Source: Clostridiales bacterium (GTDB lineage Bacteria > Bacillota > Clostridia > Oscillospirales > Oscillospiraceae). Taken from it: a stretch of 36,576 bases of DNA. The notes beneath the pieces were generated by a model. That model was not told the origin of the DNA and did no database searches. It saw nothing but the letters and a program-made list of their open reading frames with translations. This document shows positions 4,675 through 34,547 of the stretch, one piece after another. The position numbers and the translations under genes are program-made. Location: positions 1 to 36,576 of the forward strand of contig JALFRA010000010.1 of NCBI GenBank assembly GCA_022785125.1. The letters are read 5' to 3'. Position 1 is the first letter of the stretch. Each line of letters starts with the position of its first letter.

Positions 4675-6039
4675 ATGATACTCAAGACCAAGCTGCTGGG
4701 GCATGTCTATGAATTCAAGTCAGTCAAGGACGCCCTGGCCAAAGCCAATGAAGAGAAGTCGGGAGACCGGCTGGCGGGCATTGCCGCCGAGAACGCCGAG
4801 GAGCGGGTGGCGGCCAAGGTGGTTGTGGCCAACCTGACTCTGGCCGATCTGCGCAACCACCCCGCCGTCCCCTATGAGGAGGACGAGGTCACCCGCATCA
4901 TTCAGGACGACGTGAACGAGAAGATCTATGACCAGATCAAGAACTGGACGGTGGCCGAGCTGCGGGAATGGCTGCTGGCGGAGAACCACGACGGCGACGC
5001 CATCCGGTGGGTGAGCCGGGGCCTGACGGCGGAGATGATCGCCGCCGTGGCCAAGCTGATGAGCAATATGGACCTCATTTACGCCGCCAAGAAGATCAAG
5101 GTCACCGCCCACTGCAATACCACCATCGGCCTGCCGGGCACCCTGTCCTGCCGGCTCCAGCCCAACCACCCCACCGATGATCCCGACGGCATCCTGGCCT
5201 CCCTGTTGGAGGGCCTGACCTTCGGGGCGGGTGACGCGGTGCTGGGCCTGAACCCGGTGGACGATTCGGTGGAAAGTGTGCGCCGGGTGCTGGACCGATT
5301 CCATGAGGTGCGCAACCGCTGGAACATCCCCACCCAGATCTGCGTGCTGGCCCACGTCACCACCCAGATGGAGGCGGTGCGCAAGGGCGCTCCCTGTGAC
5401 CTGATCTTCCAGTCCATCGCCGGGTCCCAGAAGGGCAACGAGGCTTTCGGCCTGGACGGCAAACTCATCGAGGAGGCCCGGCAGCTGGCTCTGAAGGAGG
5501 GTACCGCCGTGGGGCCCAACGTGATGTACTTTGAGACGGGCCAGGGCTCCGAGCTGTCCTCCGAGGCTCACCACGGGGCGGACCAGGTGGTGATGGAGGC
5601 CCGGTGCTACGGCTTTGCCAAGCGGTTCCAGCCCTACCTGGTGAACACGGTGGTGGGCTTTATTGGGCCGGAATATCTGTATAATTCCAAGCAGGTCATA
5701 CGGGCTGGATTGGAAGATCACTTCATGGGCAAGCTGACCGGCGTGCCCATGGGGTGCGACGCCTGCTACACCAACCACATGAAGGCCGACCAGAACGACA
5801 TCGAGGATCTGGCGGTGCTGCTCACCGCCGCCGGGTGCAACTACTTTATGGGCATCCCCCACGGGGACGACGTGATGCTCAACTACCAGACCACCGGCTT
5901 CCACGAGACCGCCGCCCTGCGGGAGCTGTTCGGCCTCACCGCCATTCCCCCCTTCCAGCGGTGGCTGGAGGACATGGGCTTTGTGGCCAACGGCAAGCTG
6001 ACCCCGCTGGCGGGTGACGCGTCGGTGCTGCTGGGGTAA
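4675..6039 (+). CDS. eutB: Ethanolamine ammonia-lyase, large (catalytic) subunit
   Basis: A 454-aa TIM-barrel subunit that, with EutC and adenosylcobalamin, splits ethanolamine into acetaldehyde and ammonia by a radical mechanism. Full family length. Highly conserved stretches are visible: NTTIGLPGTLSCRLQPNHP (about residues 143-161), GDAVLGLNPVDDSVE, QICVLAHVTTQMEA, the catalytic-site MYFETGQGSELSSEAHHGAD (about 283-302), and GVPMGCDACYTNHMKADQND followed by GIPHGDDVMLNYQT. ATG with AAAGGAG seven bases upstream. The signature enzyme of the pathway; it is followed by a palindromic repeat and eutC. Confidence 0.97.
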   Translation: MILKTKLLGHVYEFKSVKDALAKANEEKSGDRLAGIAAENAEERVAAKVVVANLTLADLRNHPAVPYEEDEVTRIIQDDVNEKIYDQIKNWTVAELREWLLAENHDGDAIRWVSRGLTAEMIAAVAKLMSNMDLIYAAKKIKVTAHCNTTIGLPGTLSCRLQPNHPTDDPDGILASLLEGLTFGAGDAVLGLNPVDDSVESVRRVLDRFHEVRNRWNIPTQICVLAHVTTQMEAVRKGAPCDLIFQSIAGSQKGNEAFGLDGKLIEEARQLALKEGTAVGPNVMYFETGQGSELSSEAHHGADQVVMEARCYGFAKRFQPYLVNTVVGFIGPEYLYNSKQVIRAGLEDHFMGKLTGVPMGCDACYTNHMKADQNDIEDLAVLLTAAGCNYFMGIPHGDDVMLNYQTTGFHETAALRELFGLTAIPPFQRWLEDMGFVANGKLTPLAGDASVLLG

Positions 6040-15663: not shown

Positions 15664-16494
15664 TTAATGATTTGGCGTCCACCACACCACACCGCTGTGA
15701 TATTTTGCCGTGGCCTGCCAACTGCCATTGGGCATCTGCGTGAAGTGACGGCACAGGATGGCTCTGGCGGTATCAGGATCCACTGTTCCGGGAGTACAGC
15801 GGACACACTCTCCCTGCACCAAAGCATCCGTATCAGGATAGGAGAGCAGCTTTTCAAAGGGAAGCACCGCGACGTTGGGGTCGATGCCCATCTGGTAGAG
15901 CACGCCCACAAAGTAGATATAATCTTTCCACTCCCAGTGGATCTGTCCGCCTGCGGCATTCAATTCATGGATCCAGGCAGGGGCAAGACCGGTATTCATG
16001 CCCACCACGCACAGCCTGTTTGCAGCCTGGTCCATTCTGCGGAAGCAGTCCACCAGGTCAGCCTGGCGGTAGAAGCAGTTGTATCCAAAGACCAGGTCAA
16101 ATCGCTTTTCAGGCGTAAAGGTTTCCCATTTGGCGTGGAAGGCGGAGATATTGTTTTGACCATGCGCAGCACCTGCCTGGAGGACAAAATCCAGTACGTC
16201 CCGGGAGATATCCACACAGGCCACCTCCCGGCAGAGTTTTGCCAGGGTCAGGGTATAGCTGGCCCAGCCGGGCCCCAGTTCCAGCGCAGTCTCCACCCTG
16301 TGGGTGCGCAGCAGAGGACGCAGGTAATCCAGGACCTGAAGGGCGGAGGGCTCAGGAGCATAGATTTTTTTTTGGATAAACTCCCGCCAAAAGGTTTGCT
16401 CTGCCTCGTCATCTGTCATTCGCGGCGATGTGCTTGCCGCCACCTGTTCCGCCCACTGCCGGGCAAAGTCAGGCAGTGGTACGCGTTCTCTCAT
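15664..16494 (-). CDS. Class I SAM-dependent methyltransferase, last gene of the B12-controlled transporter operon
   Basis: A 276-aa protein with a Rossmann methyltransferase core: motif I ALELGPGWASYTLTLA (about residues 69-84), motif II VACVDISRDVLDFV (about 91-104) and FDLVFGYNCFY (about 129-139). An N-terminal helical part and a C-terminal region rich in aromatic residues flank it. The substrate is unknown. ATG 16494 overlaps the stop of the upstream ATPase (ATGA), so translation is coupled to the transporter. Possible roles are making or modifying a metal-binding ligand or a corrinoid-linked methylation; nothing in the sequence decides. Confidence 0.8.
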   Translation of the reverse strand: MRERVPLPDFARQWAEQVAASTSPRMTDDEAEQTFWREFIQKKIYAPEPSALQVLDYLRPLLRTHRVETALELGPGWASYTLTLAKLCREVACVDISRDVLDFVLQAGAAHGQNNISAFHAKWETFTPEKRFDLVFGYNCFYRQADLVDCFRRMDQAANRLCVVGMNTGLAPAWIHELNAAGGQIHWEWKDYIYFVGVLYQMGIDPNVAVLPFEKLLSYPDTDALVQGECVRCTPGTVDPDTARAILCRHFTQMPNGSWQATAKYHSGVVWWTPNH

Positions 16495-17285
16495 GACTGT
16501 GCGCCTCCCTCCCAATGGGTATAGGAATAGAGCAGTTCTTTGGTATAGGGGTGAACAGGGGCTTCCAACACCTGCTCCCGGCTTCCCACTTCCACCAGCC
16601 GCCCCTTCTGCATGACGCCGATGGTATGGCTGATCCATCCCAGCAATTCAATATCATGGGTAATATAGAGGTAGGTCAGTCCCAGCTCCTGCTGGAGGTC
16701 CCGCAGCAGGTTCATGATGCTGGCCTGCACCGATACATCCAGCATGGAGGTAGGCTCATCCAGCAAAAGTACCTCCGGCTCCAGCAGCAGGGCCCGGCAG
16801 ATCACCAGCCGCTGACCTTCGCCACCGCTGATTTGGTGGGGATAGCGGGAGAGAAGATAGTCGGGCAGGCCCACCTGCCTGAGCGTTTTCTGGATTTTAG
16901 CCATGCGTTCCTCTTTGCTGCTGCCCAGGTGGTGGATGGCCATGGCCTCCAGCAGACTGTTACGGATATGGATGGAGGGGTCCAGAGAGGCCTCTGGATT
17001 CTGAAAGATGATCTGTACCCGCCGGTGGTAGCTTTTGCATTGCTTTCGGTCAAAGCCGGCAATATCCTTGCCTTCAAACCGGATGGACCCGCTGGTGGGG
17101 CGCAGGACACGGGTGATCATACGGGACAAAGTGGTCTTGCCGCATCCACTGTTGCCCACCAGCCCAAAGGTTTTCCCCCGCTCCAGGACAAAACTGACCT
17201 CATCCACCGCCCGGGTGGTGTGGGTTTGGAAGATGCCGCTGGTAAAAATACGACTGACCCCATCCAGTTCCAGTATGTTATTCAT
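16491..17285 (-). CDS. ABC transporter ATPase (NikE/DppF type)
   Basis: 264 aa. Walker A GNSGCGKTT (about residues 43-51), Q-loop IIFQNPEASLDP, signature SGGEGQRLVICRAL and Walker B VLLLDEPTSMLDVSVQ are all intact. This is the second ATPase of a nickel/dipeptide-family importer; members of this half usually lack the C-terminal cysteine motif, as here. Its start overlaps the upstream ATPase gene by 8 bases and its end overlaps the methyltransferase start. Confidence 0.9.
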   Translation of the reverse strand: MNNILELDGVSRIFTSGIFQTHTTRAVDEVSFVLERGKTFGLVGNSGCGKTTLSRMITRVLRPTSGSIRFEGKDIAGFDRKQCKSYHRRVQIIFQNPEASLDPSIHIRNSLLEAMAIHHLGSSKEERMAKIQKTLRQVGLPDYLLSRYPHQISGGEGQRLVICRALLLEPEVLLLDEPTSMLDVSVQASIMNLLRDLQQELGLTYLYITHDIELLGWISHTIGVMQKGRLVEVGSREQVLEAPVHPYTKELLYSYTHWEGGAQS

Positions 17286-18219
17286 AGAGGAAGCACCTCA
17301 CTTTCCCGCCTGCCGGAAGCGGATAATCGTCCGGCTTTTCCCTGCCGCACCGGGCTGTGGCTCTGGAGCAGCGGGGATAAAAGGGACAGCCGCTGTGGGT
17401 CAGCCGTTCAGGGGCCGGTGGAGGGATGGGAACCATCCCCTGGCTGGGCAGTGAGCGGATCAGACCGGCGGTGTAGGGGTGGCGGGGCCGCTCCATAACC
17501 TCCTCCGCCGTACCCTGCTCGATAATCTGCCCCATATAAAGTACCCGGATATCATCGCACAGCTGCTGCGCCAGGGCCAGATCATGGGTAATGACGATCA
17601 TGCTGCAGTGGCGCTCCGTGTAAATCTGGCGGAGTACCGAATATACCTGGTTTCGAATTACTGCGTCCAGCCCTTTGGTGGGTTCATCCGCAATGACCCA
17701 GCCCGGGCGGCAGGCCAGCCCCAGAGCGGATACCAGACGCTGGTTCATGCCGCCGCTCATTTGAAAGGCGTACTGGTTCAGGGTACGCTCCGGCTCCTCA
17801 AACCCAAACTGGCGGAGCAGTTGGGCGGCCTGGATCTCCGCCTGCTTCCGACTCCATTTGCCGTGGGTGGTGATGGCTTCCGTCAGCTGGCGGCGGAGCT
17901 TCATCACAGGATCCAGAGAAGCGCCGGGATTCTGCGGGATGAGGCCGATGGCACCGCCCCGCAGCTTGCGCAGCTGCCGCAGCGGCATGGAATAGAGTTC
18001 ATGCTCACCAAAAAAGCACTTTCCTGTTACCCGGGCGGTGTTGGGAAGCAGGCGCAGCAGGGACATGCCCATTATGCTCTTGCCGCTGCCGCTCTCCCCA
18101 ATGACCCCCGAGATTCGCCCGGCCCGAAAGGTGGTGGACAGGTCGTTGACGGCGCACACCGGGCCTTGCGCGGTGTCAAAGCACACCGAAAGGTGCTGAA
18201 TTTCAATGTCTGGTACCAT
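17278..18219 (-). CDS. ABC transporter ATPase (NikD/DppD type)
   Basis: 313 aa with Walker A GESGSGKSIMG, Q-loop LIPQNPGASLDPV, signature MSGGMNQRLVSALGL, Walker B VIADEPTKGLDAV. The C-terminal extension GCPFYPRCSRATARC (about residues 278-292) is the cysteine-bearing tail of oligopeptide/nickel ATPases. ATG 18219 is taken because GAAGGAG stands just upstream; the open frame extends further but overlaps the permease gene. Two bases separate it from that permease. Confidence 0.9.
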   Translation of the reverse strand: MVPDIEIQHLSVCFDTAQGPVCAVNDLSTTFRAGRISGVIGESGSGKSIMGMSLLRLLPNTARVTGKCFFGEHELYSMPLRQLRKLRGGAIGLIPQNPGASLDPVMKLRRQLTEAITTHGKWSRKQAEIQAAQLLRQFGFEEPERTLNQYAFQMSGGMNQRLVSALGLACRPGWVIADEPTKGLDAVIRNQVYSVLRQIYTERHCSMIVITHDLALAQQLCDDIRVLYMGQIIEQGTAEEVMERPRHPYTAGLIRSLPSQGMVPIPPPAPERLTHSGCPFYPRCSRATARCGREKPDDYPLPAGGKVRCFLYE

Positions 18220-18221
18220 GC

Positions 18222-19058
18222 TCACAGCTCCTTCACCGAATCCTGCTTCACGTCCAGCCGGTCCCGCAAAATATCCCCCAGCAGGTTGATGGACAGGGTG
18301 AGCAGGATAATGCACAGCCCCGGGGCCCACAGCAAATGGGGGGCGCTGCGGAAGTACCGGCGGGCGGTACCGCTGACCATCTCGCCCCAGTCCGGGGTGG
18401 GGGGCTGGATGCCAAGCCCCAGATAGCTCAGGCCGGCCACAGACAGCACCACCCGACCCAGCCGGGTGGTAAACTGGAGAATGACATTGGTGCGGATGTT
18501 GGGCAGTACATGCCGCAGGACGATACGGAGGTGACCCGCGCCCAGACAGCGCATACCCTCGATATACATCTCGCCTTTGACCTTCATGACCTCTCCCCGC
18601 ACCAGACGGGAAAACCCCACCCAGGAGGTAATGACCAGGGCGAGAATTATGCTTTTGCTGTTCCGCTCCAGAATGCCGACCAGGGCGATCATCAGCACCA
18701 TGCCGGGCAAGCCCTGGAAGATATTGGAGATTGCGGTGATCACGCTGTCTATAATCCCTCCGCAGTAGCCGGAAATGACGCCAATGACCAGGCCCACAAG
18801 CATAGAGCAGGCGGTGGCAGCCACAGCCAGCAGCAAAGAGGCCCGGCCGCCGTAAATGACACGGCTGAGTACGTCCCGGCCCAGGGCATCGGTTCCAAGA
18901 GGGTGGGCCCGGCAGGGAGACAGCAGACGGAGGTCCATGTTGACCTCCAGGGGATCATAGGGGGACAGCCAGGGGGCAAATATCGTCATCAGAACGATAG
19001 CCAGGAGAATGGAGCAGACAATGGTCAGCTGGAAATTCTGTTTTTTGCGTCTGGTCAT
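18222..19058 (-). CDS. ABC transporter permease (NikC/DppC type)
   Basis: 278 aa with an N-terminal membrane helix (about 10-28), the OppC-like LSPYDPLEVN and LGTDALGRDVLSRVIYGGR segment, then five further membrane helices. The ATPase-coupling EAA loop is EGMRCLGAGHLRIVLRHVLPN (shown to 20: EGMRCLGAGHLRIVLRHVLP). It overlaps the NikB-type permease gene by 4 bases (ATGA). Part of an inner-membrane importer for metal-ligand complexes or peptides. Confidence 0.9.
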   Translation of the reverse strand: MTRRKKQNFQLTIVCSILLAIVLMTIFAPWLSPYDPLEVNMDLRLLSPCRAHPLGTDALGRDVLSRVIYGGRASLLLAVAATACSMLVGLVIGVISGYCGGIIDSVITAISNIFQGLPGMVLMIALVGILERNSKSIILALVITSWVGFSRLVRGEVMKVKGEMYIEGMRCLGAGHLRIVLRHVLPNIRTNVILQFTTRLGRVVLSVAGLSYLGLGIQPPTPDWGEMVSGTARRYFRSAPHLLWAPGLCIILLTLSINLLGDILRDRLDVKQDSVKEL

Positions 19059-20008
19059 ACTTCTCCCCCCTGCAGACGGATTTTGGGGTTCACCGCAAGA
19101 TAGAGCAAATCAATGGCAAGTGTGATGAGTACAAAGGTGGTGCCGGTTATGAGTACATATCCCTGAATGACGGGATAGTCCCGGTTCTGAATGGCGGAGA
19201 GCACATAGCTGCCCAGACCGGGAATGGCAAATATATTCTCAATGATCGTACTTCCGCCTAAAATCCCGCCGAAATAGTTGCCGATTAGGGTGATAATGGG
19301 AACCAGGGAGTTCCGGAAGGCGTGGGCCACCATTACCGTCCGCTGCGAGAGGCCTTTGGCATTGGCCACCACGATATATTGCTCCCCCAGCTGAGCCAGG
19401 ATATTGCCTCGGGTGAAGCGGGACGTAGAGCCTACGTTCCCCGCAGCCAGGGCTGCGGCAGGGAGTACCAAAGAGGCCAGGCCCCGGTCCAGTCCGCTGG
19501 TGGGCAGCAGATGGAGCCACTCGGCAAATACAGTGATGAGAAACAGAGCCAGCCAGAAGCCCGGTATGGACAGCAGGAGGGTGGAAAAAACCTTCAGTAT
19601 GGTATCAAGCCATGTGCCGTGGCAGGCAGCCATGAGCACACCTCCTCCCACACCAAAAACCACAGCCACCAGCAGGGCGGCAAGGGAGACTTTCAGGGTG
19701 ACGGGCAGCCGGGTCATTAGTTCATGGGCAATGTCTTTGCTGCCGATGTAGGAGCGGCCCAGATCACCATGAAGCGCCTTTCCCAGCCAGGTCATATACT
19801 GTACCGGCAGAGGCTTGTCCAGTCCCAGCTCGGTACGCATGGCGGCGCGGTCCTCCTCCGTCGGGAACTCGATACCGATGCGGAACAGGGCGTCATCCAC
19901 CGGATCGCCGGGCGCGATACGGCCCAGCAGAAAGGCTGCCAAGGAAATGCCCAGCAGCACCGGGATGAGCACCAGCAGCCTGCGGCCAATGTAAGTCAGA
20001 ATTGCCAT
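19055..20008 (-). CDS. ABC transporter permease (NikB/DppB type)
   Basis: 317 aa. First helix RRLLVLIPVLLGISLAAFLL (about 8-27), then the periplasm-side segment with APGDPVDDAL and LGLDKPLPVQYMTWL, five more helices and the coupling loop VVANAKGLSQRTVMVAHAFR. It pairs with the permease encoded downstream to make the transmembrane channel. About 80 bases with a hairpin separate it from the binding-protein gene. Confidence 0.9.
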   Translation of the reverse strand: MAILTYIGRRLLVLIPVLLGISLAAFLLGRIAPGDPVDDALFRIGIEFPTEEDRAAMRTELGLDKPLPVQYMTWLGKALHGDLGRSYIGSKDIAHELMTRLPVTLKVSLAALLVAVVFGVGGGVLMAACHGTWLDTILKVFSTLLLSIPGFWLALFLITVFAEWLHLLPTSGLDRGLASLVLPAAALAAGNVGSTSRFTRGNILAQLGEQYIVVANAKGLSQRTVMVAHAFRNSLVPIITLIGNYFGGILGGSTIIENIFAIPGLGSYVLSAIQNRDYPVIQGYVLITGTTFVLITLAIDLLYLAVNPKIRLQGGEV

Positions 20009-20046
20009 GTTCCACCGCCTTTTGAAAATGAGGTTGGTACGGGAAA

Positions 20047-20074
20047 CAAGCCCCCGCCGCAGGACGGGGGCTTG
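20047..20074 (-). terminator. Intercistronic hairpin between binding protein and permease genes
   Basis: A 10-bp GC stem (20047-20056 with 20065-20074) lies in the gap behind the binding-protein gene, with a weak T tail on the minus strand (TTGTTTCCC). It is probably a partial terminator or mRNA-stabilising structure that raises binding-protein output over the membrane parts. Confidence 0.5.
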
Positions 20075-20090
20075 CTTTTGGATATGGGGA

Positions 20091-21680
20091 TCATTTTGCC
20101 CAACATACCTGAGTAAAGCCGGTCAGGCCATATACGGTGGCCTGATAGCCGGTGATATCGCTGGAGGAGGCCACCACCTCCTGGGAATAGAGCACAGGGA
20201 TATTGGGGAAGTCCGCGGCGGAGATCTCCTGGAGTTCCTTGTAGATTTCCGCCAGACGATCGGCGTCCAGACAGGCGGCAGCCTCTTCAATCAGCCCATC
20301 CGCATGATCATTGTGGTAACCAAGACCGTAATTGATGTTGGTGCTGCCTTCCGTATGCAAGAAGCCCTTAAACAGGGAGAAGGGGTTGGCGGAGGGGAGA
20401 CCCTGGATCTTCAGACACATATTATAGTTGCCCGCCTTCATCTCATCCTTGCAGGGACCCCAATCCATCTGCTGGATGCTGACCTTGATGTTGGTGCCCT
20501 CGATGTTCTCCAGAAGAGCCTGAATATACTCGGCCTCTTCCTGGTAGGGGTAGCGGTTGGCGTCCACGCCGGGCAGCAGGAAGCGCAGCTCCACCGCCTG
20601 GTCCCCAACCACCTCGCGGATCAGCTGGGCGCCCTTCTCAGGGTCGTGGCGGACGGGCTGTTCCGCAAAAAAGGCAGAGGTGTAGCTCAGAAAACCGCCG
20701 GCGGCGAGGCCGTAACCGTTATAAAAGCTGTCAATGATGGTCTGGCGGTCCAGCAGCAGAGACAGCCCCTCCCGCATCCGCACATCATTGAAGGGGAAGG
20801 CGCCGCCGTTGACATTGAGGAAGTGGGTGATGCCGGAGTCGCCCACAGACACATTGTAGGCCGGGTCGTCGGCAATTTCCGCAGCCTGGGCGGGGGAGAT
20901 GGCGCCCAGGTCGCACAGGCCCTGGACCTCGCCGGCCCGCAGAGCGGTATAGCGGGTCTCCGCATCAGGGATGACTTTAAAGCGGAAGGTCTGAGCAATG
21001 CCGGGGGTGCCCCAGTAATTGTCGCTGCGCTCAATGATACAATACTGGCCCAGCACGTTTTCCGTCACCACATAGGGACCGGTGCCGATGGGAAAGCCGT
21101 TAAAGGTGCCGTCCTGGGCAAAGCAGGCAGGTTCAAAGATGGCCGAGCCGTAGTTGACCATGGTATAGTCCAGCAGGGGCTGACCTTCGGAAAGGGTGAG
21201 TACCACGGTATAGTCGTCGGTCTTCTCATAAGACAGCAGGCCAGGGTAGATGGTGTCGATGTTCATGCCGTAGAAGGAGGATTCAAAGGGGCCCTTCTTC
21301 ATGCGGTCGAAATTGGCCAGCACGATGTCGGCGTTGAAGGGGGTACCATTGGAGAAGGTCACGCCCTGCCGCAGGTGGAAGGTCCATACGGTGGAGTCCT
21401 CATTGTGCTCCCATTCGGTGGCCAGAGCAGGTGCGGGCTTGCCGTGCTCGTCCTTGGTGATCAGGGGTTCCCACACCCCCAGGGACATGGAGGCGTAGTA
21501 GGCGTCCTGCTCGCCGGGACACTGATCCCTGGAGGCGGCAAAAACGATTTCTCGAGTCTGATCCACCCCGGTGGCAGGCGCCTCTGAGCCAACAGGCGCA
21601 GGAGTTCCGCCGCAGGCGGCCAGGGACAGCGCCAGCACAGCGCCCAACAGTGCGGATAAGAGTCGCTTGTTCTTCATCAT
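20091..21680 (-). CDS. Lipoprotein substrate-binding protein, NikA/DppA (SBP_bac_5) family
   Basis: 529 aa. A lipoprotein signal (KNKRLLSALLGAVLALSLAA then C) is followed by a flexible linker and a family 5 binding fold. WEPLITKDEHGKPAPALATEW, WTFHLRQGVTFSNGTPFNAD and GTGPYVVTENVLGQY...NYWG correspond closely in order to E. coli NikA as I recall it. The ligand could be nickel, cobalt, a metal-chelator complex, a corrinoid fragment or a peptide; control by a cobalamin riboswitch favours cobalt or a corrinoid-related ligand. AAAGGGAG precedes the double ATG. Confidence 0.9.
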   Translation of the reverse strand: MMKNKRLLSALLGAVLALSLAACGGTPAPVGSEAPATGVDQTREIVFAASRDQCPGEQDAYYASMSLGVWEPLITKDEHGKPAPALATEWEHNEDSTVWTFHLRQGVTFSNGTPFNADIVLANFDRMKKGPFESSFYGMNIDTIYPGLLSYEKTDDYTVVLTLSEGQPLLDYTMVNYGSAIFEPACFAQDGTFNGFPIGTGPYVVTENVLGQYCIIERSDNYWGTPGIAQTFRFKVIPDAETRYTALRAGEVQGLCDLGAISPAQAAEIADDPAYNVSVGDSGITHFLNVNGGAFPFNDVRMREGLSLLLDRQTIIDSFYNGYGLAAGGFLSYTSAFFAEQPVRHDPEKGAQLIREVVGDQAVELRFLLPGVDANRYPYQEEAEYIQALLENIEGTNIKVSIQQMDWGPCKDEMKAGNYNMCLKIQGLPSANPFSLFKGFLHTEGSTNINYGLGYHNDHADGLIEEAAACLDADRLAEIYKELQEISAADFPNIPVLYSQEVVASSSDITGYQATVYGLTGFTQVCWAK

Positions 21681-21755: not shown

Positions 21756-22733
21756 TCACGCCTGAAGTCCCAACTGGAATAGGGCGTTGGACCAGGAACC
21801 GCAGGACTCCTGTAATCGCCTGCGGACCTCCGGTGGTACTTCCCGGCGACGGGGAGGACGCCCCAGCTTTTCTGCCATGGCCCGGATAAAAGCCAGGTCC
21901 GCAGCCGTCTTTTGATCCAGATGCAGGATCCGGTAGTGGCAATCATAGAGATCCCCGCGGTGGGTGGCCCTGGAGCGGCTCTCTCCCCTGTGGAGCGGGG
22001 TGTTGACAAAGGGGGTGATCCGCCGTACTGGTTCCAGGTCGATCTGGTAGAGGGTATTTCGCCAGGAACCAAAGCGCTGTATAAGCGCTGTTCGCAGTTC
22101 GTCTTGTACTTCGCTGCGCAGAGGCGCCCGGTTGAGTTGTTGAGCCAGGACCAGAAGCTGGGCCAGCCGCTGTTTGTCCGCTTCTTCCAGACTGTCAAAT
22201 TTCCGCAGACCGGCGGCGGCAGCTTCTTCCGCTCCGGCGGCGGTCAGCACCTGACCCCAGGTCTGATATTGCTTTTTTAACTGCTGACCGATCTCGGGCA
22301 AGTCTGATGGATGGGGGATTCGTCCCAGCGCCTTTGCGGCTTCTCGTACTTGAGCCAGCAGTGCCTGGATTTCGGACTCCTTTTGCTCCACCCGGGCAAA
22401 AGATAGACCGCCCCGTCCAGCTGCGCGGTTCAGGCCCGCTGCCCGCAGCGCGCCCGGCCAGTTATGAAAACGGCTGCGCAGATATTCCCGCAAGAGCCAG
22501 TGGACCTCACCTTGGGCGGGTGAGTGCCCCAGATCCTTTGCAGTTTCCCGCAGCAGCTCCAACAGCGCATCATCAGAGAAGGCGGCGCAGAGCGCTTTTC
22601 CCTGGGGGGTATTTATAGAATAACAGGCGTACTGCGCTTCAGATTCTTCCTGAGAGGAGCATCCGGCCCGAATCAGGTCGATTACCATGGATTTCTGGTC
22701 TGCCAGCTGGTCGCGGGAACGGTTCATCTCCAT
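21756..22733 (-). CDS. Protein of homing-endonuclease-associated repeats, first gene under the cobalamin riboswitch
   Basis: 325 aa, soluble, with at least four copies of a roughly 45-residue helical repeat. Each pairs a LGRxPxxxEV-like element with a distal GSW/NW motif: DLGHSPAQGEVHWLL...NWPGALRAAG; ALGRIPHPSDL...TWGQVLTAAG; QLNRAPLRSEV...SWRNTLYQI; KLGRPPRRREV...SWSNALFQLG. Such repeats accompany HNH homing endonucleases and are thought to bind DNA, but no nuclease domain is present. ATG 22733 follows AGAGGGAAG and a terminator hairpin. Role unknown; a regulator of the transporter is one possibility. Confidence 0.7.
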   Translation of the reverse strand: MEMNRSRDQLADQKSMVIDLIRAGCSSQEESEAQYACYSINTPQGKALCAAFSDDALLELLRETAKDLGHSPAQGEVHWLLREYLRSRFHNWPGALRAAGLNRAAGRGGLSFARVEQKESEIQALLAQVREAAKALGRIPHPSDLPEIGQQLKKQYQTWGQVLTAAGAEEAAAAGLRKFDSLEEADKQRLAQLLVLAQQLNRAPLRSEVQDELRTALIQRFGSWRNTLYQIDLEPVRRITPFVNTPLHRGESRSRATHRGDLYDCHYRILHLDQKTAADLAFIRAMAEKLGRPPRRREVPPEVRRRLQESCGSWSNALFQLGLQA

Positions 22734-22753: not shown

Positions 22754-22792
22754 AAAAGCGGCTGTGGATCGTTAGAATCCACAGCCGCTTTT
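22754..22792 (-). terminator. Intrinsic terminator of the cobalamin riboswitch
   Basis: A 16-bp stem (22754-22769 with 22777-22792) ends in TTTTGCGG on the minus strand, just before the ribosome binding site of the repeat-protein gene. Position and shape fit the expression platform of the riboswitch at 22841-23020. Confidence 0.75.
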
Positions 22793-22840
22793 CTGTGTGT
22801 GCAGCCACCGGGTGCGGCGTCCCGCACGCGGCGTATCCTC

Positions 22841-23020
22841 TTTTTGTAGGTCTTCTGACTTGCGCTTGGGACAGGATCTTCCTGCCTTCGCCGGTCTGCT
22901 CTGCCTTCTCAGGGTACGTCCCCAATGGCGAACTTTCGTTGACGAGCAGCGGACATCACGCATACAGCGGCGGTTACCGTCCGGGATTCTCACCCGATTC
23001 CCTTGTTCAGCCTCCATCTT
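22841..23020 (-). ncRNA. Cobalamin riboswitch
   Basis: Read on the minus strand it has the class-defining core: GGGAATCGGGTGAGAATCCC, then GGTAACCGCCGCTGTATGCG (counterpart of the CCCGCNACTGTNA region). A variable arm follows with CCATTGGGGACG...GAAGGC, and it closes with AAGTCAGAAGACCTAC. Binding of a cobalamin would favour the downstream terminator and switch off the transporter operon when B12 is plentiful. Confidence 0.88.
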
Positions 23021-23043
23021 CTGAAAGGCCACAAAAAGCTTGA

Positions 23044-23091
23044 TTGAAAATAAAAAGTGCGGTCTTTCCATTTTGGAAAGACCGCACTTTT
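23044..23091 (-). terminator. Intrinsic terminator behind the upstream leader element
   Basis: A perfect 18-bp stem (23053-23070 with 23074-23091) has T-rich TTTTATTTTC following on the minus strand. It stands between two structured leader elements of one transcript, so it must be conditional for the downstream genes to be expressed. Confidence 0.85.
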
Positions 23092-23116
23092 ACAAAACAG
23101 CCTACGATTCCCCAAA

Positions 23117-23211
23117 AGGTGCCACTTGATGTACGATCACTGCCGGCTGACGTCTCATGACGAATACGGCCTCCGCGCCGGATTCCCACCGGCTTATGAC
23201 AAAGAGCACCT
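23117..23211 (-). ncRNA. Second structured leader element, possibly a reduced cobalamin-type riboswitch
   Basis: About 95 nt immediately downstream of the promoter. A closing helix AGGTGCT with GGCACCT encloses GCCGGTGGGAATCCGGC, which looks like the cobalamin P3 hairpin GCCGGTGNNAATCCGGC, followed by GCGG. It also has a CGTC-ATGA-GACG hairpin and CGTCAGCCGGCAGTGATCG near the 3' side. The usual CCCGCCACTGT core and large variable arm are missing. It ends before a strong terminator. It may be a degenerate or compact cobalamin riboswitch or a distinct class. Confidence 0.55.
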
Positions 23212-23262
23212 GTTTCCAACAAGTTTCTCATCGTATCTGCAATATTTTAATTGTTAGAATTT

Positions 23263-23291
23263 ATTATACTGCATTGCACGGTACATTGCAA
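23263..23291 (-). promoter_or_regulatory. Sigma-A promoter of the riboswitch-transporter operon
   Basis: On the minus strand, TTGCAA (23291-23286), exactly 17 bases, then consensus TATAAT (23268-23263). The predicted start near 23256 gives a leader of about 520 nt to the first gene. Confidence 0.85.
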
Positions 23292-24328: not shown

Positions 24329-24396
24329 TTCATAGTACCACGCATGATACGATAAAAACAAGATTATCCCAAGAAAATGGTAAAAGGAGAATGTAT

Positions 24397-26388
24397 ATGG
24401 ATCAGACAGAAAGGGACCTGGAATATGCTCCATATAACACAGAGCGCAGAGATTCTCCAGGGCGATTAAAGATATTTTTTGGATATGCAGCAGGTGTGGG
24501 AAAGACATACGCCATGCTGGAGGCGGCTCACCAGGCGAAAAAAGAGGGTATCGATGTTGTAGTGGGCTATGTGGAGCGACACGCAAGGCCCGAAACATTA
24601 GCGCTGTTGGAGGGGCTGGAGGTTTTGCCCTGTCAGGAGATTGATTATCGAGGGATCAAACTGAAGGAGTTTGACCTGGATCAGGCCTTGCAGCGGAAAC
24701 CACAGCTCATCCTTGTGGATGAATTGGCACATAACAATGCCCAGGGATGCCGGCACACAAAACGCTATCAAGATGTGGAGGAATTGCTCCAGGCCGGGAT
24801 CAATGTCTATACCACGGTCAATGTACAGCATCTGGAATCATTGAACGACTTGATATCTTCTATTACGGGGATTGCGGTAAATGAGCGGATTCCAGATCAT
24901 GTGTTTGACCGGGCCAATCAGGTTGAGCTGGTGGATATTGCGCCCGATGAGCTGGTAAAGCGGCTTCAGACGGGAAAAGTATACCGGGAACGTCAGGCCA
25001 GGCAGGCTCTCCAGAACTTTTTTACCACTGAGAATTTAGCTGCACTGCGTGAGATTGCCATGCGGCGGACGGCGGATCAACTAAACCGCACAGCACTACA
25101 AGAAGGCAAGGGGAAAAGCGCAAAAGCAGGGGAGCATATTCTGATTTGCTTGTCTTCTGCGCCATCCAACGCCAAGGTGATCCGCACGGCCGCCAGAATG
25201 GCAGAAGCCTTTCACAGCGGCTTTACCGCATTGTTTGTGCAGACGCCGGAGACGAAAGAATTATCGGGCGAGAATATCAAGCGGCTGCGCGGCAACCTGC
25301 GTCTGGCAGAGCAGCTGGGGGCACAGATTTCTACCGTATATGGTACGGACCCTGCCGTGCAGATCGCGGAATATGCCCGGGTCAGTGGTGTGACAAAGAT
25401 TATTATGGGGCGTGTCAACCACAAACAAAACGTGATTACAGGGAAAAAAAGCCTGGCAGACCGCTTGATTGAGCTGACGAATCTGGATATCTATATTATC
25501 CCGGACCATCAGCCCCTGTACAAAAGGCCGCTGGGGAAACTGCATCTGCCGAAAGCGCGATTTTCCTGGAGAGACACCGGGATCATGCTGGCGGCATGGC
25601 TTCTTTCCACAGCGGTTGGATTTGCATTTTATTATGCCGGATTCAGTGAGTCCAATATCATAACCGTTTATATTTTAGGGGTGCTTCTGACTGCGGTTTG
25701 GACAGGCAGCCACATTTACGGCGCCATCAATTCGCTTTTCAGCGTTGGTGCGTTTAATTTCTTTTTCACCGTACCGAGATATTCTTTTCAGGCCTATGAT
25801 CCCAGTTATCCTGTTACTTTTTTGATTATGTTGTTCTCCAGCATGATTGCCAGCTCCTTGGCCAGTCGGGTCAAAGCACAGGCGCGATTGACTTCGGAAA
25901 AAAGCTACTACACGGAGCTTCTTCTGGAAAGCAGCCAAAAGCTGCAAAAAGGCAGGACGGAATGGGACTGCCTGCGTCTAACGGCGGAACAGCTCAGCCG
26001 TCTGTTTGACCGCCCGGTCGTGTATGCGGTGAATGGCACGGAACAGGAATTGGCGTTTCGGATCGAACCGAGCGATGAAGCAACGGTTTTGGCAGGCCTG
26101 AGTTCGGAAGAGATCGGAGTAGCCAAGTGGGTACAGAAGAACAATAAGCACGCCGGAGCGACTACCAATACACTGCCGGATTCAAAGTGGCTGTTTTTGT
26201 CTGTTAGAGGCACACATGGTGTTATGGGTATCGTGGGAATCCCGATGGTTGGATACTCCATTCCGGATGCGTTTGAAAAGAACCTGATGATTGCCATACT
26301 GAGCGAATGCGGCCTGAGCCAGGAACGTATCCGGTTGGAGGACGAGCGAAACAGGGCGGCCATCCAGACCCAAAGGGATCAATATTAA
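24397..26388 (+). CDS. Kinase-less KdpD paralogue (sensor region only)
   Basis: 663 aa. It has the N-terminal KdpD domain with Walker A GYAAGVGKTY (about 29-38) and Walker B LILVDELAHN, then a universal-stress-like domain (LICLSSAPSNAKVIRTAARM...FTALFV). After that come a compact membrane block (about 390-500) and a GAF-like region ending near DERNRAAIQTQRDQY. The histidine-kinase and ATPase domains of normal KdpD (about 880-890 aa) are completely missing, and no remnant follows the stop. ATG 24397 is chosen since AAAGGAG lies 7 bases upstream; ATG 24391 would be too close. It may sense K+ or c-di-AMP and modulate the full KdpD at 31908. Confidence 0.88.
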   Translation: MDQTERDLEYAPYNTERRDSPGRLKIFFGYAAGVGKTYAMLEAAHQAKKEGIDVVVGYVERHARPETLALLEGLEVLPCQEIDYRGIKLKEFDLDQALQRKPQLILVDELAHNNAQGCRHTKRYQDVEELLQAGINVYTTVNVQHLESLNDLISSITGIAVNERIPDHVFDRANQVELVDIAPDELVKRLQTGKVYRERQARQALQNFFTTENLAALREIAMRRTADQLNRTALQEGKGKSAKAGEHILICLSSAPSNAKVIRTAARMAEAFHSGFTALFVQTPETKELSGENIKRLRGNLRLAEQLGAQISTVYGTDPAVQIAEYARVSGVTKIIMGRVNHKQNVITGKKSLADRLIELTNLDIYIIPDHQPLYKRPLGKLHLPKARFSWRDTGIMLAAWLLSTAVGFAFYYAGFSESNIITVYILGVLLTAVWTGSHIYGAINSLFSVGAFNFFFTVPRYSFQAYDPSYPVTFLIMLFSSMIASSLASRVKAQARLTSEKSYYTELLLESSQKLQKGRTEWDCLRLTAEQLSRLFDRPVVYAVNGTEQELAFRIEPSDEATVLAGLSSEEIGVAKWVQKNNKHAGATTNTLPDSKWLFLSVRGTHGVMGIVGIPMVGYSIPDAFEKNLMIAILSECGLSQERIRLEDERNRAAIQTQRDQY

Positions 26389-31881: not shown

Positions 31882-31907
31882 ACATCTGTTTGAAAGGGGG
31901 GGGATCA

Positions 31908-34547
31908 ATGGGTACGAAAATGCTGCCTGACCAGGCTAGAAAACATGGAAAGCTGTCCATTTTTGTGAGCTATTTTTCGGGAACGGGGAAAAGCTATGCC
32001 ATGCTGGAAGCTGCTGACAGAGCTAGGCAGGCAGGGGTGGACGTAGTCATTGGGTTATTCTCCGCCCATCAGTGGCCTGAAACCAGAGCGTTGGCCGAAA
32101 CATTTGAGACATTGCCGCACAAATCTGTTGTGTGTGCCGGGCAGACCAGCGATGAGATCGATTTGGATGCCTGCTTAAAGCGCTTGCCGCAGTTGATTTT
32201 AATTGATGACTTGTCCCACCTGAACGTGGATGAGTCCCGCCACATGAAGCGCTATCAGGATATTGAGGAACTGCTGAAAGCCGGAGTGGATGTCTATACC
32301 ACCCTGGATATTCAGCATATTGAAAGCATTCAGGATTCCATCTCCTCTATATTGGAGGCTCCCATACGGGAACGAATTCCGGATCGAATCTTTGACCAAG
32401 CGGAACAGGTGGAATTTATCGATATTGAGCCGGAAAAGCTGCAACATCGCCTGTTCCAGCAAAAGAGGGGAGAGCTGATTTCAAACTGCACACTGGAGCG
32501 GTTAAGCGCGCTTCGAGAGATCGGCTTGCGCCGCTGTGCCGACCGAGTCGCACTGCACACATCAGCGTCCCAGGGCAAGATGGAGTACCGCACGCGGGAG
32601 CATATTTTGGTCTGCCTTTCTTCTGCCCCATCCAATGAAAAGATAATACGTACTGCGGCACGGATGGCAAGCGCCTTTCGGTGCGGCTTTACGGCGTTGT
32701 TTGTGGAAACAAAAGAGTTCCAGTGGATATCCCCGCCCAATAAAAAGCGCCTTCAGACCAACATTCATCTGGCACAGCAGCTGGGAGCATCGATTGAGAC
32801 CGTTTACGGTGATGATGTGGCCTATCAGATTGCTGAGTTTGCGCGGCTGTCAGGAGTTACAAAAATTGTATTGGGCCGCAGCGGTGTGCCCCATGGGCTG
32901 CTGTTCCGGAAGGCCTCTTTAACAGAACGTCTGATTGAACTTACTCCGGAACTGGACATCCATATTATTCCAGACAATGGGATGAATGGTCAGCTTGCGG
33001 CAAAGCATCGAGAAGCTATGCACATACCCACCATCTCGATGCTGGATTTGCTAAAGAGCGTCCTGATCCTCATTTTAACGACTTTAATAGGGTTTTTATT
33101 TGATAATTGGGGATTTACGGAAGCAAACATTATTACCTTGTATATTTTAGGGGTCATGTTGATATCCGTATTCATAAAGAGCTCGGTTTGTAGTTTTATT
33201 GCCTCTATCGTCAGTGTGCTGACCTTCAACTTCTTTTTTACCGACCCCCGGTTTTCTTTGCACGCCTATGACAGCGGATATCCGGTCACCTTCCTGGTCA
33301 TGTTCCTCGCTTCTTTGCTGACCGGATCTCTGGCATCCAGATTAAAGTCTCACGCCAAACGATCTGCTCAAGTCGCATGGCGTACAAAGCTTCTTTTTGA
33401 AACAAGCCAGAGCCTTCAAAAGGCTGGAACGCAAGAGGAGATTATCTCTATAACAGCGAAGCAGCTGTTGAAAATATTTCAGCGGGATATGATTACCTAT
33501 CTGCTTGGGCAGGATCAACTGATAGATCCGGAAGTTTTTCTTGTGAATGATATGGAGTCCTCGGAATGCTATACCTCTGCAAAAGAGCAGGAGGTAGCGC
33601 GATGGGTCGTAACCAATAATAAGCGGGCAGGTGCAGGCACGGATAATTTTCCTGATGCCTGCTGTACGTACTTATCCATTCGCACAGGAGAACAGGTATA
33701 TGGAGTGGTAGGGATCGCCGCATCAGAGAAACCCCTTGATTCGTTTGAGACGAGCATCCTTCTTTCCATTTTAGGGGAGTGTGCCCTTGCCCTTGAAAAC
33801 CAAAAAAATATTGAGGAAAAAGAAGCTGCTGCGGTTCTTGCCAAAAATGAGCAGCTGCGTGCAAACTTGCTTCGCTCCATTTCCCATGATTTGCGTACCC
33901 CGCTGACGTCTATTTCAGGAAATGCCAGCAATCTGCTCTCCAATGGCAATCTGTTCGATACACAGACGAAGGAACAGATGTATACTGACATTTATGATGA
34001 TGCCATGTGGCTGATTAACCTGGTAGAAAATCTGCTGTCTGTCAGTCGCCTGGAAGAGGGCCGCATGAATCTGCATATGTCTACCGAATTGATTGACGAG
34101 GTAGTGGCAGAGGCGCTGCGCCACATCAACCGGAAGAGCGTAGAGTATCACCTAAATGTACAAAGCAGCGAGGAATACATTTTGGCGCAAATTGATGCAA
34201 AACTGATTGTTCAGGTTTTGATCAATATTGTTGATAACGCCATCAAGTATACGCCGCCTGGCTCTGAAATTCATATTAGCTGGAAGCAACGGGATGGTTA
34301 TGTTTATGTTTCCGTTGCAGATAATGGTCCCGGGATTCCGGACAAGGCCAAGCCCCATGTATTTGATATGTTTTACAGCGCGTCCAATCGAATTGCGGAC
34401 AGCCGTCGCAGTATGGGTTTAGGCCTTGCCTTGTGCAAGTCCATTATCAATGCCCATGGCGGAGAACTTACAGTGACGGACAATGTGCCCCATGGATCTA
34501 TTTTTACATTTTCCGTACTGGCTGGGGAGGTAGAACTGCATGAATAA
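31908..34547 (+). CDS. kdpD: Sensor histidine kinase KdpD (full length)
   Basis: 879 aa. It has the N-terminal KdpD domain (Walker A FSGTGKSY, about 23-30; LILIDDLSHL), a universal-stress-like domain (SSAPSNEKIIRTAARM...CGFTALFVET) and four membrane helices about 385-490. GAF-like, dimerisation and catalytic domains follow: phospho-acceptor H660 in SISHDLRTPLTSISG, N box NIVDNAIKYTPPG, G boxes ADNGPGIPD and MGLGLALCKSII. It phosphorylates KdpE under K+ limitation. In Staphylococcus the stress-like domain binds c-di-AMP; the FTALF segment here is similar. ATG 31908 follows AAAGGGGGGGGA. It overlaps kdpE by 8 bases. Confidence 0.95.
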   Translation: MGTKMLPDQARKHGKLSIFVSYFSGTGKSYAMLEAADRARQAGVDVVIGLFSAHQWPETRALAETFETLPHKSVVCAGQTSDEIDLDACLKRLPQLILIDDLSHLNVDESRHMKRYQDIEELLKAGVDVYTTLDIQHIESIQDSISSILEAPIRERIPDRIFDQAEQVEFIDIEPEKLQHRLFQQKRGELISNCTLERLSALREIGLRRCADRVALHTSASQGKMEYRTREHILVCLSSAPSNEKIIRTAARMASAFRCGFTALFVETKEFQWISPPNKKRLQTNIHLAQQLGASIETVYGDDVAYQIAEFARLSGVTKIVLGRSGVPHGLLFRKASLTERLIELTPELDIHIIPDNGMNGQLAAKHREAMHIPTISMLDLLKSVLILILTTLIGFLFDNWGFTEANIITLYILGVMLISVFIKSSVCSFIASIVSVLTFNFFFTDPRFSLHAYDSGYPVTFLVMFLASLLTGSLASRLKSHAKRSAQVAWRTKLLFETSQSLQKAGTQEEIISITAKQLLKIFQRDMITYLLGQDQLIDPEVFLVNDMESSECYTSAKEQEVARWVVTNNKRAGAGTDNFPDACCTYLSIRTGEQVYGVVGIAASEKPLDSFETSILLSILGECALALENQKNIEEKEAAAVLAKNEQLRANLLRSISHDLRTPLTSISGNASNLLSNGNLFDTQTKEQMYTDIYDDAMWLINLVENLLSVSRLEEGRMNLHMSTELIDEVVAEALRHINRKSVEYHLNVQSSEEYILAQIDAKLIVQVLINIVDNAIKYTPPGSEIHISWKQRDGYVYVSVADNGPGIPDKAKPHVFDMFYSASNRIADSRRSMGLGLALCKSIINAHGGELTVTDNVPHGSIFTFSVLAGEVELHE

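Follow-up and report, generated by a model that had tools for sequence, protein, structure and literature searches.

What does a second, riboswitch-like RNA do in a leader that already holds an ordinary cobalamin riboswitch? The question is raised by a minus-strand leader at 22754-23291 of the window, by which we mean the whole stretch of 36,576 nucleotides that was analysed (contig JALFRA010000010.1 of a Clostridiales bacterium). The leader carries two RNA control elements in series behind one promoter-like site (TTGCAA-17-TATAAT, 23263-23291, minus strand), which matches the consensus at 10 of 12 positions and justifies the term near-consensus used in the earlier note on this DNA; a promoter scan of the leader returned 1 site against a mean of 0.6 in shuffles, and both hexamers are present in the copy of genome G018 too. 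The site is followed by a compact cobalamin-riboswitch-like element of 142 nt (23098-23239, minus strand), delimited with an alignment and covariance models, and by a first intrinsic terminator, the perfect 18-bp hairpin that had been described behind the element and that the terminator scan placed at 23091-23053 on the minus strand. The next RNA is a canonical cobalamin riboswitch (22828-23051, minus strand; RF00174, 86.7 bits against a gathering score of 31.5, model positions 1-189 of 189), so named already, although its limits are slightly wider than the 22841-23020 first given. Before the first gene stands a terminator-like hairpin read from the sequence (22754-22790, minus strand); its 14-bp stem (22790-22756) fits the second terminator claimed earlier, but it has a run of only 4 T and is absent from our simple terminator scan, which requires 5 T in 8 bases.

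The first gene after the leader encodes HNH-A (21756-22733, minus strand), a protein of 325 aa with four HNH_repeat (PF18780) stretches, and it is followed on the same strand by a NikA/Opp-like ABC importer (16491-21680) with a substrate-binding protein (20091-21680), permeases (19055-20008 and 18222-19058) and ATPases (17278-18330 and 16491-17285). Among the matches listed for the importer proteins no NCBIfam model was over its cut-off, and nickel- and peptide-type relatives score best. Two KdpD-type sensors lie elsewhere in the window around kdpABC: one (24391-26388, 665 aa) gave no Pfam kinase domain at E 0.001, and the other (31890-34547), a full histidine kinase, has a response regulator after it.

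The upstream RNA had been described as a 95-nt element at 23117-23211. It is a separate structured RNA, as claimed, but larger: it runs from CAGATACGATGAGAAACTTG to TCGTAGGCTG, and we set its length at 142 nt because the invariant 5' block CAGATACGATGAGAAACTTG is part of it, as is the conserved 3' end close to TCGTAGGCTG. A covariance-model search of both RNAs against Rfam had been proposed, and the gathering score is reached in this leader by the downstream RNA only. The upstream element scored 19.4 bits (E 0.22) against RF01482 when searched in 301 nt and 11.2 bits (E 9.1) in 151 nt, where the gathering score is 50; RF00174 is not listed for it because the two families belong to the same clan and the best match alone was kept. 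The folding energy of the element taken by itself does not differ from that of shuffles (z 0.09; 104 of 200 shuffles fold at least as well), and the support for the element is therefore comparative.

The comparison covered 20 genomes of the window's genus (probably Flavonifractor). A DNA search of 60 genomes found the leader in six at E below 1e-37, the window's genome included, and our first covariance model, R1, found the element in 6 of the 20 genus genomes, with one copy each; a seventh genus genome gave a 42-nt match only (E 0.29 with R1), and the leader had no match in plasmids. The same element occurs in a named locus, that of Flavonifractor sp. AGMB03687 (L040), and L039 is a further distinct copy; the genus alignment comprises seven distinct sequences, with L040, which has the same element, left out. 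The first 20 nt of the element are invariant in all seven rows. Across the six genus homologues, identity to the window is 82-92% in the element and 90-94% in the canonical riboswitch, and it amounts to 52-67% in the 60 nt upstream, 62-87% in the spacer with the terminator, 63-82% in the 110 nt after the riboswitch, and 62-79% in the last 900 nt of the HNH-A gene. The element is thus better conserved than its flanks and than the HNH-A gene. In five named or MAG loci with a related substrate-binding gene, L041 (F. plautii) and L042-L045, fewer than 180 nt separate the end of a cobalamin riboswitch from that gene, which leaves no HNH-A gene between them, and the full element was not found in these loci (best score 12.8 bits); L042 has a second cobalamin riboswitch on the other strand. 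A 1.8-kb locus from another genus (G417, L062), with a leader that looks like the type of G015 and an HNH-A-like frame after it, is probably a mis-binned MAG contig and was excluded from the counts.

Beyond the genus, a full-length match was found in G592, a distant clostridial genome of another family, at 31.8 bits with R2, a covariance model made from the seven genus elements with G592 unseen in training (E 4.1e-6 in 48 sources of 324 kb; E 3.1e-5 over the whole G592 genome). Like the window's element, this RNA stays far below the gathering score of 50 for RF01482 (12.9 bits, E 4.3). It sits between a canonical cobalamin riboswitch (L111 642-839) and an HNH-A gene; in the window the two RNAs stand in the opposite order. 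The G592 HNH-A has 337 aa and is 41% identical over its length, with two PF18780 stretches over the cut-off in one search and three places in another; the genes on its 3' side encode FecCD, an ABC ATPase, CbiZ, a periplasmic binding protein and CobN, from which we read the operon as one for corrinoid uptake and salvage. In G592 the terminator scan picked up the hairpin after the riboswitch but not the one after the element. No element match was obtained in 5 other genomes of the same family, and a retrained model (R3, trained on both the window's genome, G000, and G592, and run with stricter filters) found a strong full-length element in these two only among 391 genomes of the class, so that the distant support comes from a single genome. 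R3 also gave two weak matches in G521. The matches of R2 and R3 in G780, G521 and the RNA type of contig C40 (20-31 bits) were set aside as related compact cobalamin-type RNAs that are not of the window type. Of the weakly matched compact cobalamin-like leaders L148, L149 (both G521) and L133 (G780), the last two stand before secreted-looking proteins.

These comparisons bear on the first of the readings offered for the element, namely that it is a decaying, functionless duplicate of a cobalamin riboswitch. Such a duplicate would have low Rfam scores and no energy signal, which is what we found; however, it would not be expected to keep 20 invariant 5' nucleotides in seven of seven genus rows, an identity well above that of the 60 nt upstream, or a counterpart elsewhere in the class that occupies a similar locus and carries compensatory changes, and we regard decay, which the earlier note had entertained, as very improbable. 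Nor is the element restricted to one strain: the search for homologues and covariation, proposed as a check, recovered it in six of the 20 genus genomes and in G592, with covariation that is modest.

The fold was mapped by analogy with the structure line of cobalamin riboswitches, in the order P1-P2-P3-AA-P4-GC-linker-P5, and all of its strands read on the minus strand. The 5' switching strand TACGAT (23230-23235) has an inner partner at 23132-23137, with which it forms P1 (TACG/CGTA), and an outer partner at 23103-23108. P2 is a hairpin at 23204-23229 (GAG 23229-23227 with CTC 23206-23204, and ACTTGT 23224-23219 with ACAGGT 23213-23208), whose GAG and CTC are kept in G592. P3 (23136-23200) pairs GTCAT 23200-23196 with GTGAT 23140-23136 and is contiguous with P1 on the 3' side. 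P4 is the hairpin GCCGG-TGGGAAT-CCGGC at 23177-23193, the signature of cobalamin riboswitches that had been recognised in the upstream RNA as GCCGGTGGGAATCCGGC and is indeed present at 23193-23177; it agrees in 20 of 21 nt with the P4 hairpin of a cobalamin riboswitch of the same genome, and GC follows directly after the hairpin CCGGUGnnAAUCCGG, as in cobalamin riboswitches (in G592, four of the five P4 pairs are kept and AC stands in place of GC). P5 (23142-23170) pairs GCCG 23170-23167 with CGGC 23145-23142 and encloses an inner hairpin, CGTC 23162-23159 with GACG 23154-23151, which shows compensatory changes and whose outermost pair is broken in three of the eight rows.

When the seven genus rows were scored with the terminator included, 98.9% of the cells were paired and two-sided changes occurred in 4 pairs (0 of 500 shuffles); with G592 as the eighth row, the aptamer-like fold has 96.0% of its cells paired and two-sided changes in 5 pairs, neither value being reached in 500 shuffles, and slid versions of the eight-row fold do not exceed 49.3% of cells and 2 pairs. 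Further pair types are no more numerous in the eight rows than in shuffles (255 of 500). The two-sided changes come mostly from one or two sequences, P1 and P4 are nearly invariant, and the G592 row is in part uncertainly aligned; we consider the covariation, judged from these alignments, to be modest. The energy model does not choose this fold unaided. In the seven leaders, folded as far as the 5' strand of the terminator, the minimum-energy fold beats the best fold with inner P1 by 1.8-5.9 kcal/mol in all seven, the outer P1 is better than the inner one in six of seven, and in the genus rows a helix GCCGGT/GCCGGC is favoured over P4 plus P5. This helix has no two-sided change and two of its six pairs are broken in G592, whereas P4 has one of five broken and P5 none of four, with one two-sided change; P4 and P5 are therefore preferred. 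A fold that needs help to form would suit a ligand-dependent element, which is not proof of one.

What the element does not have is the core. The segment CCCGCCACTGT, noted earlier as missing, and with it the whole P6/L6 core (CCCGCCACUGU region), is replaced by a short purine-rich linker in seven of seven genus rows, in keeping with a compact relative of the cobalamin riboswitch; the corresponding stretch of G592 is 7 nt longer and not of the consensus. In cobalamin riboswitches the P4 loop docks with L6. An L5-L13 kissing loop was likewise looked for by inspecting the alignment by eye: the inner hairpin of P5 has a loop that varies from row to row and for which no conserved partner was seen. 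One could still suppose that the element is a very compact corrinoid riboswitch, for cobalamin or a relative, and that the tandem makes the response to a single ligand class sharper or broader, in the manner of a pseudo-cooperative doublet. The topology and the P4 signature are the same, the genus has compact RNAs with an L6-type segment that score above gathering in two of the four regions scanned (L088, L090), and tandem AdoCbl doublets are known (PMC9481103); but L6 and a conserved L5 kissing loop are missing in the genus rows, and we hold this explanation to be distinctly unlikely. Since L6 is missing, an effector other than complete cobalamin is the most likely.

The 5' strand has a second possible use. 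TACGAT is also complementary to ATCGTA just before the terminator (the outer P1), and CAG at 23237-23239 with CTG at 23098-23100 (minus strand) assists this pairing. The outer P1 is paired in 98.6% of cells over the eight rows and shows one double change from A-U to G-C in G592. Against dinucleotide shuffles of the tail, the duplex of 5' strand and tail was equalled by 6-28 of 1000 in the six genus rows tested, and it is marginal in G592 (56 of 1000). One 5' strand thus keeps two mutually exclusive partners, as conserved complementarity, and this is as expected of a switch. Two candidate antiterminators were rejected: the pairing of GAGGCCGTAT (23173-23164) with GTGCGGTCTT (23087-23078), which ranked second among the conserved helices by our score, was equalled by 158 of 2000 column shuffles and shows no covariation, and the pairing of the tail with the 5' strand of the terminator was equalled by 104-578 of 1000 shuffles in the seven leaders. 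The failure of both candidates to beat shuffles would be in line with a constitutive structured 5' leader, or an RNA-stability element, in which the 18-bp hairpin only trims transcription. We find this reading barely credible, because G592 retains the two rival pairings of the 5' strand and the 11-bp core of the terminator stem pairs in seven of seven genus rows, with one two-sided change.

The helix AGGTGCT/GGCACCT (23211-23205/23123-23117), which had been proposed to close the element, is present and pairs in the genus rows, but it is not kept in the aligned row of G592; it may possibly be a helix of the alternative state in the genus. At the same place G592 has, as judged by eye, a candidate helix of CATGAA with TTTATG. 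An identification of the leader as a T-box was also discarded: TGGCACC, which we take to be the T-box motif, occurs in the window and is not kept in the homologues.

The element is linked to the gene behind it. It precedes a full-length HNH-A homologue in all seven genomes in which it was found (six of the genus and G592); the six genus genomes with full-length HNH-A, of 20, are the same six that have the element, and among 391 genomes of the class full-length HNH-A occurs in the window's genome and G592 only, with a partial match in G503. Genes with HNH_repeat stretches are rare in general: of 245 genomes of the class, 10 give a match at E 0.001 or better, and 8 of these exceed the Pfam cut-off. 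The window's genome has three such loci, all behind cobalamin riboswitches (21756-22733 of the window, G000:C40:82274-82687 and G000:C20:272505-272996), and outside it a cobalamin riboswitch lies just upstream in three of the eight loci over the cut-off (G592, G538, where it is a tandem pair, and G503; loci L111, L114 and L115). The stretches scanned at the other five loci contained no cobalamin riboswitch, one of them (G511) being close to a contig end, and neither did those at two loci below the cut-off. Furthermore, in four of the 20 genus genomes the second HNH_repeat gene has in front of it another compact cobalamin-type RNA, one with an L6-type segment, and these are the same four that have this gene (L086, at about 5000-5150 on the minus strand; also L088, L089 and L090). 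Two cobalamin riboswitches stand in tandem in front of the third HNH_repeat gene, and the first of them (L087 7559-7765, minus strand; a match to RF00174 positions 45-169 only, 40.8 bits) has a core that looks atypical.

From this association, HNH-A may be a regulator in the circuit or a binding partner of the element. Carried further, the element would be an RNA or DNA target of HNH-A, and the protein would adjust the first terminator by autoregulation with no small ligand involved. The co-occurrence of element and full-length HNH-A in every genome where both were sought, repeated by the second compact RNA and the second HNH_repeat gene in the same four of 20 genomes, agrees with such a target; the same linkage is, however, also expected from a single leader-gene unit, and HNH-A yields a predicted structure of low confidence (pLDDT 66.9, pTM 0.33), with no PDB entry matched significantly by fold or sequence. 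We think a protein target unlikely. HNH-A also had no match in plasmids or phages.

Our preferred explanation, which we think probable by a modest degree, takes the element to be a cobalamin-riboswitch fold in variant form and a putative attenuator placed in series with a normal B12 switch. The leader would then act as two transcription attenuators, the second an ordinary corrinoid-sensing riboswitch, presumably OFF with ligand, and the first a conserved descendant of the same fold that retains P1-P2-P3-P4-P5 and the P4 hairpin without P6/L6 or a conserved kissing loop. Its 5' strand would either close the aptamer-like fold through the inner P1 or pair near the terminator through the outer P1, and an effector stabilising one of the two folds would decide whether the first terminator forms; a polymerase that passes it would then meet the B12 riboswitch. 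Should the outer P1 block an antiterminator, forming the aptamer-like fold would switch the operon ON, or the reverse may hold. The element would on this proposal be a sensor, its effector a small molecule such as a corrinoid precursor or fragment or a metal, and the leader would compute on two inputs, a kind of control that the earlier note had suggested and that we find plausible. A bolder form of the proposal, which we put forward tentatively as a real though lesser possibility, is that a new riboswitch class arose from the cobalamin scaffold by loss of P6/L6 and a change of ligand (for example to a corrinoid precursor, a lower-ligand base or a metal), and that together with the canonical B12 switch and an HNH-repeat regulator it forms a portable two-input module set before different corrinoid- or metal-type import operons.

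How does the element compare with known systems? With the cobalamin riboswitches (RF00174 and the AdoCbl family RF01482) it shares the order P1-P2-P3-AA-P4-GC-P5, the P4 hairpin with its loop, an intrinsic terminator, and a place in the leader of an operon for corrinoid- or metal-type uptake. It differs from them in the P6/L6 region and conserved kissing loop that it lacks, in the 20-nt invariant 5' block and the second possible partner of P1 that it has, and in scores of 11-19 bits to RF01482 against 50 required. As in riboswitches generally, a conserved aptamer-like domain and then an intrinsic terminator stand in a leader. The element appears to work as a cobalamin-type leader attenuator, yet it falls short of the Rfam threshold, the L6 and the kissing loop that define the family. 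A comparable system of the same genus is the compact RNA of G000:C40 (also in G004, G015 and G016), which has the same helix order and likewise stands before an HNH_repeat gene, the second of this genome, and near canonical cobalamin riboswitches; unlike the element, it keeps an L6-type segment, AGTCTTACCTCTACTGTA, shared with the canonical riboswitches of the genus, and three of the four genomes have it at 35-46 bits against RF00174 (35 bits for the G000:C40 copy in a whole-genome search), the G015 copy not being listed at gathering.

Two RNAs in series are known from same-class tandems and from the TPP/HMP-PP gates, in which one RNA senses the coenzyme and the other a related compound (PMC9481103). 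The same paper gives 26 doublets of tandem AdoCbl riboswitches, so the tandem as such is not new; the HMP-PP riboswitches form a class of their own, unlike the first element of the window, which we describe as a cobalamin-fold variant with a conjectured ligand. An activating corrinoid riboswitch that drives antitermination has been described for A. halodurans cobT, and it uses an L5-L13 kissing loop (PMC10653944), whereas none was seen in the window's element. In the titles and beginnings of abstracts that our literature search covered, no paper was recognised on this element or on HNH_repeat genes with cobalamin riboswitches, nor on any RNA of the cobalamin fold that lacks P6/L6, stands in tandem with a canonical riboswitch and is linked to an HNH_repeat gene. 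Set beside these systems, the leader presents a large riboswitch scaffold that has apparently been reduced, and possibly re-purposed, with its full relative still in tandem; the link to HNH_repeat proteins, to which we found no role assigned and whose genes adjoin cobalamin riboswitches in several clostridia, points to an unrecognised player in corrinoid control, and two related folds in one leader, behind one promoter, make the evolution of ligand specificity directly testable.
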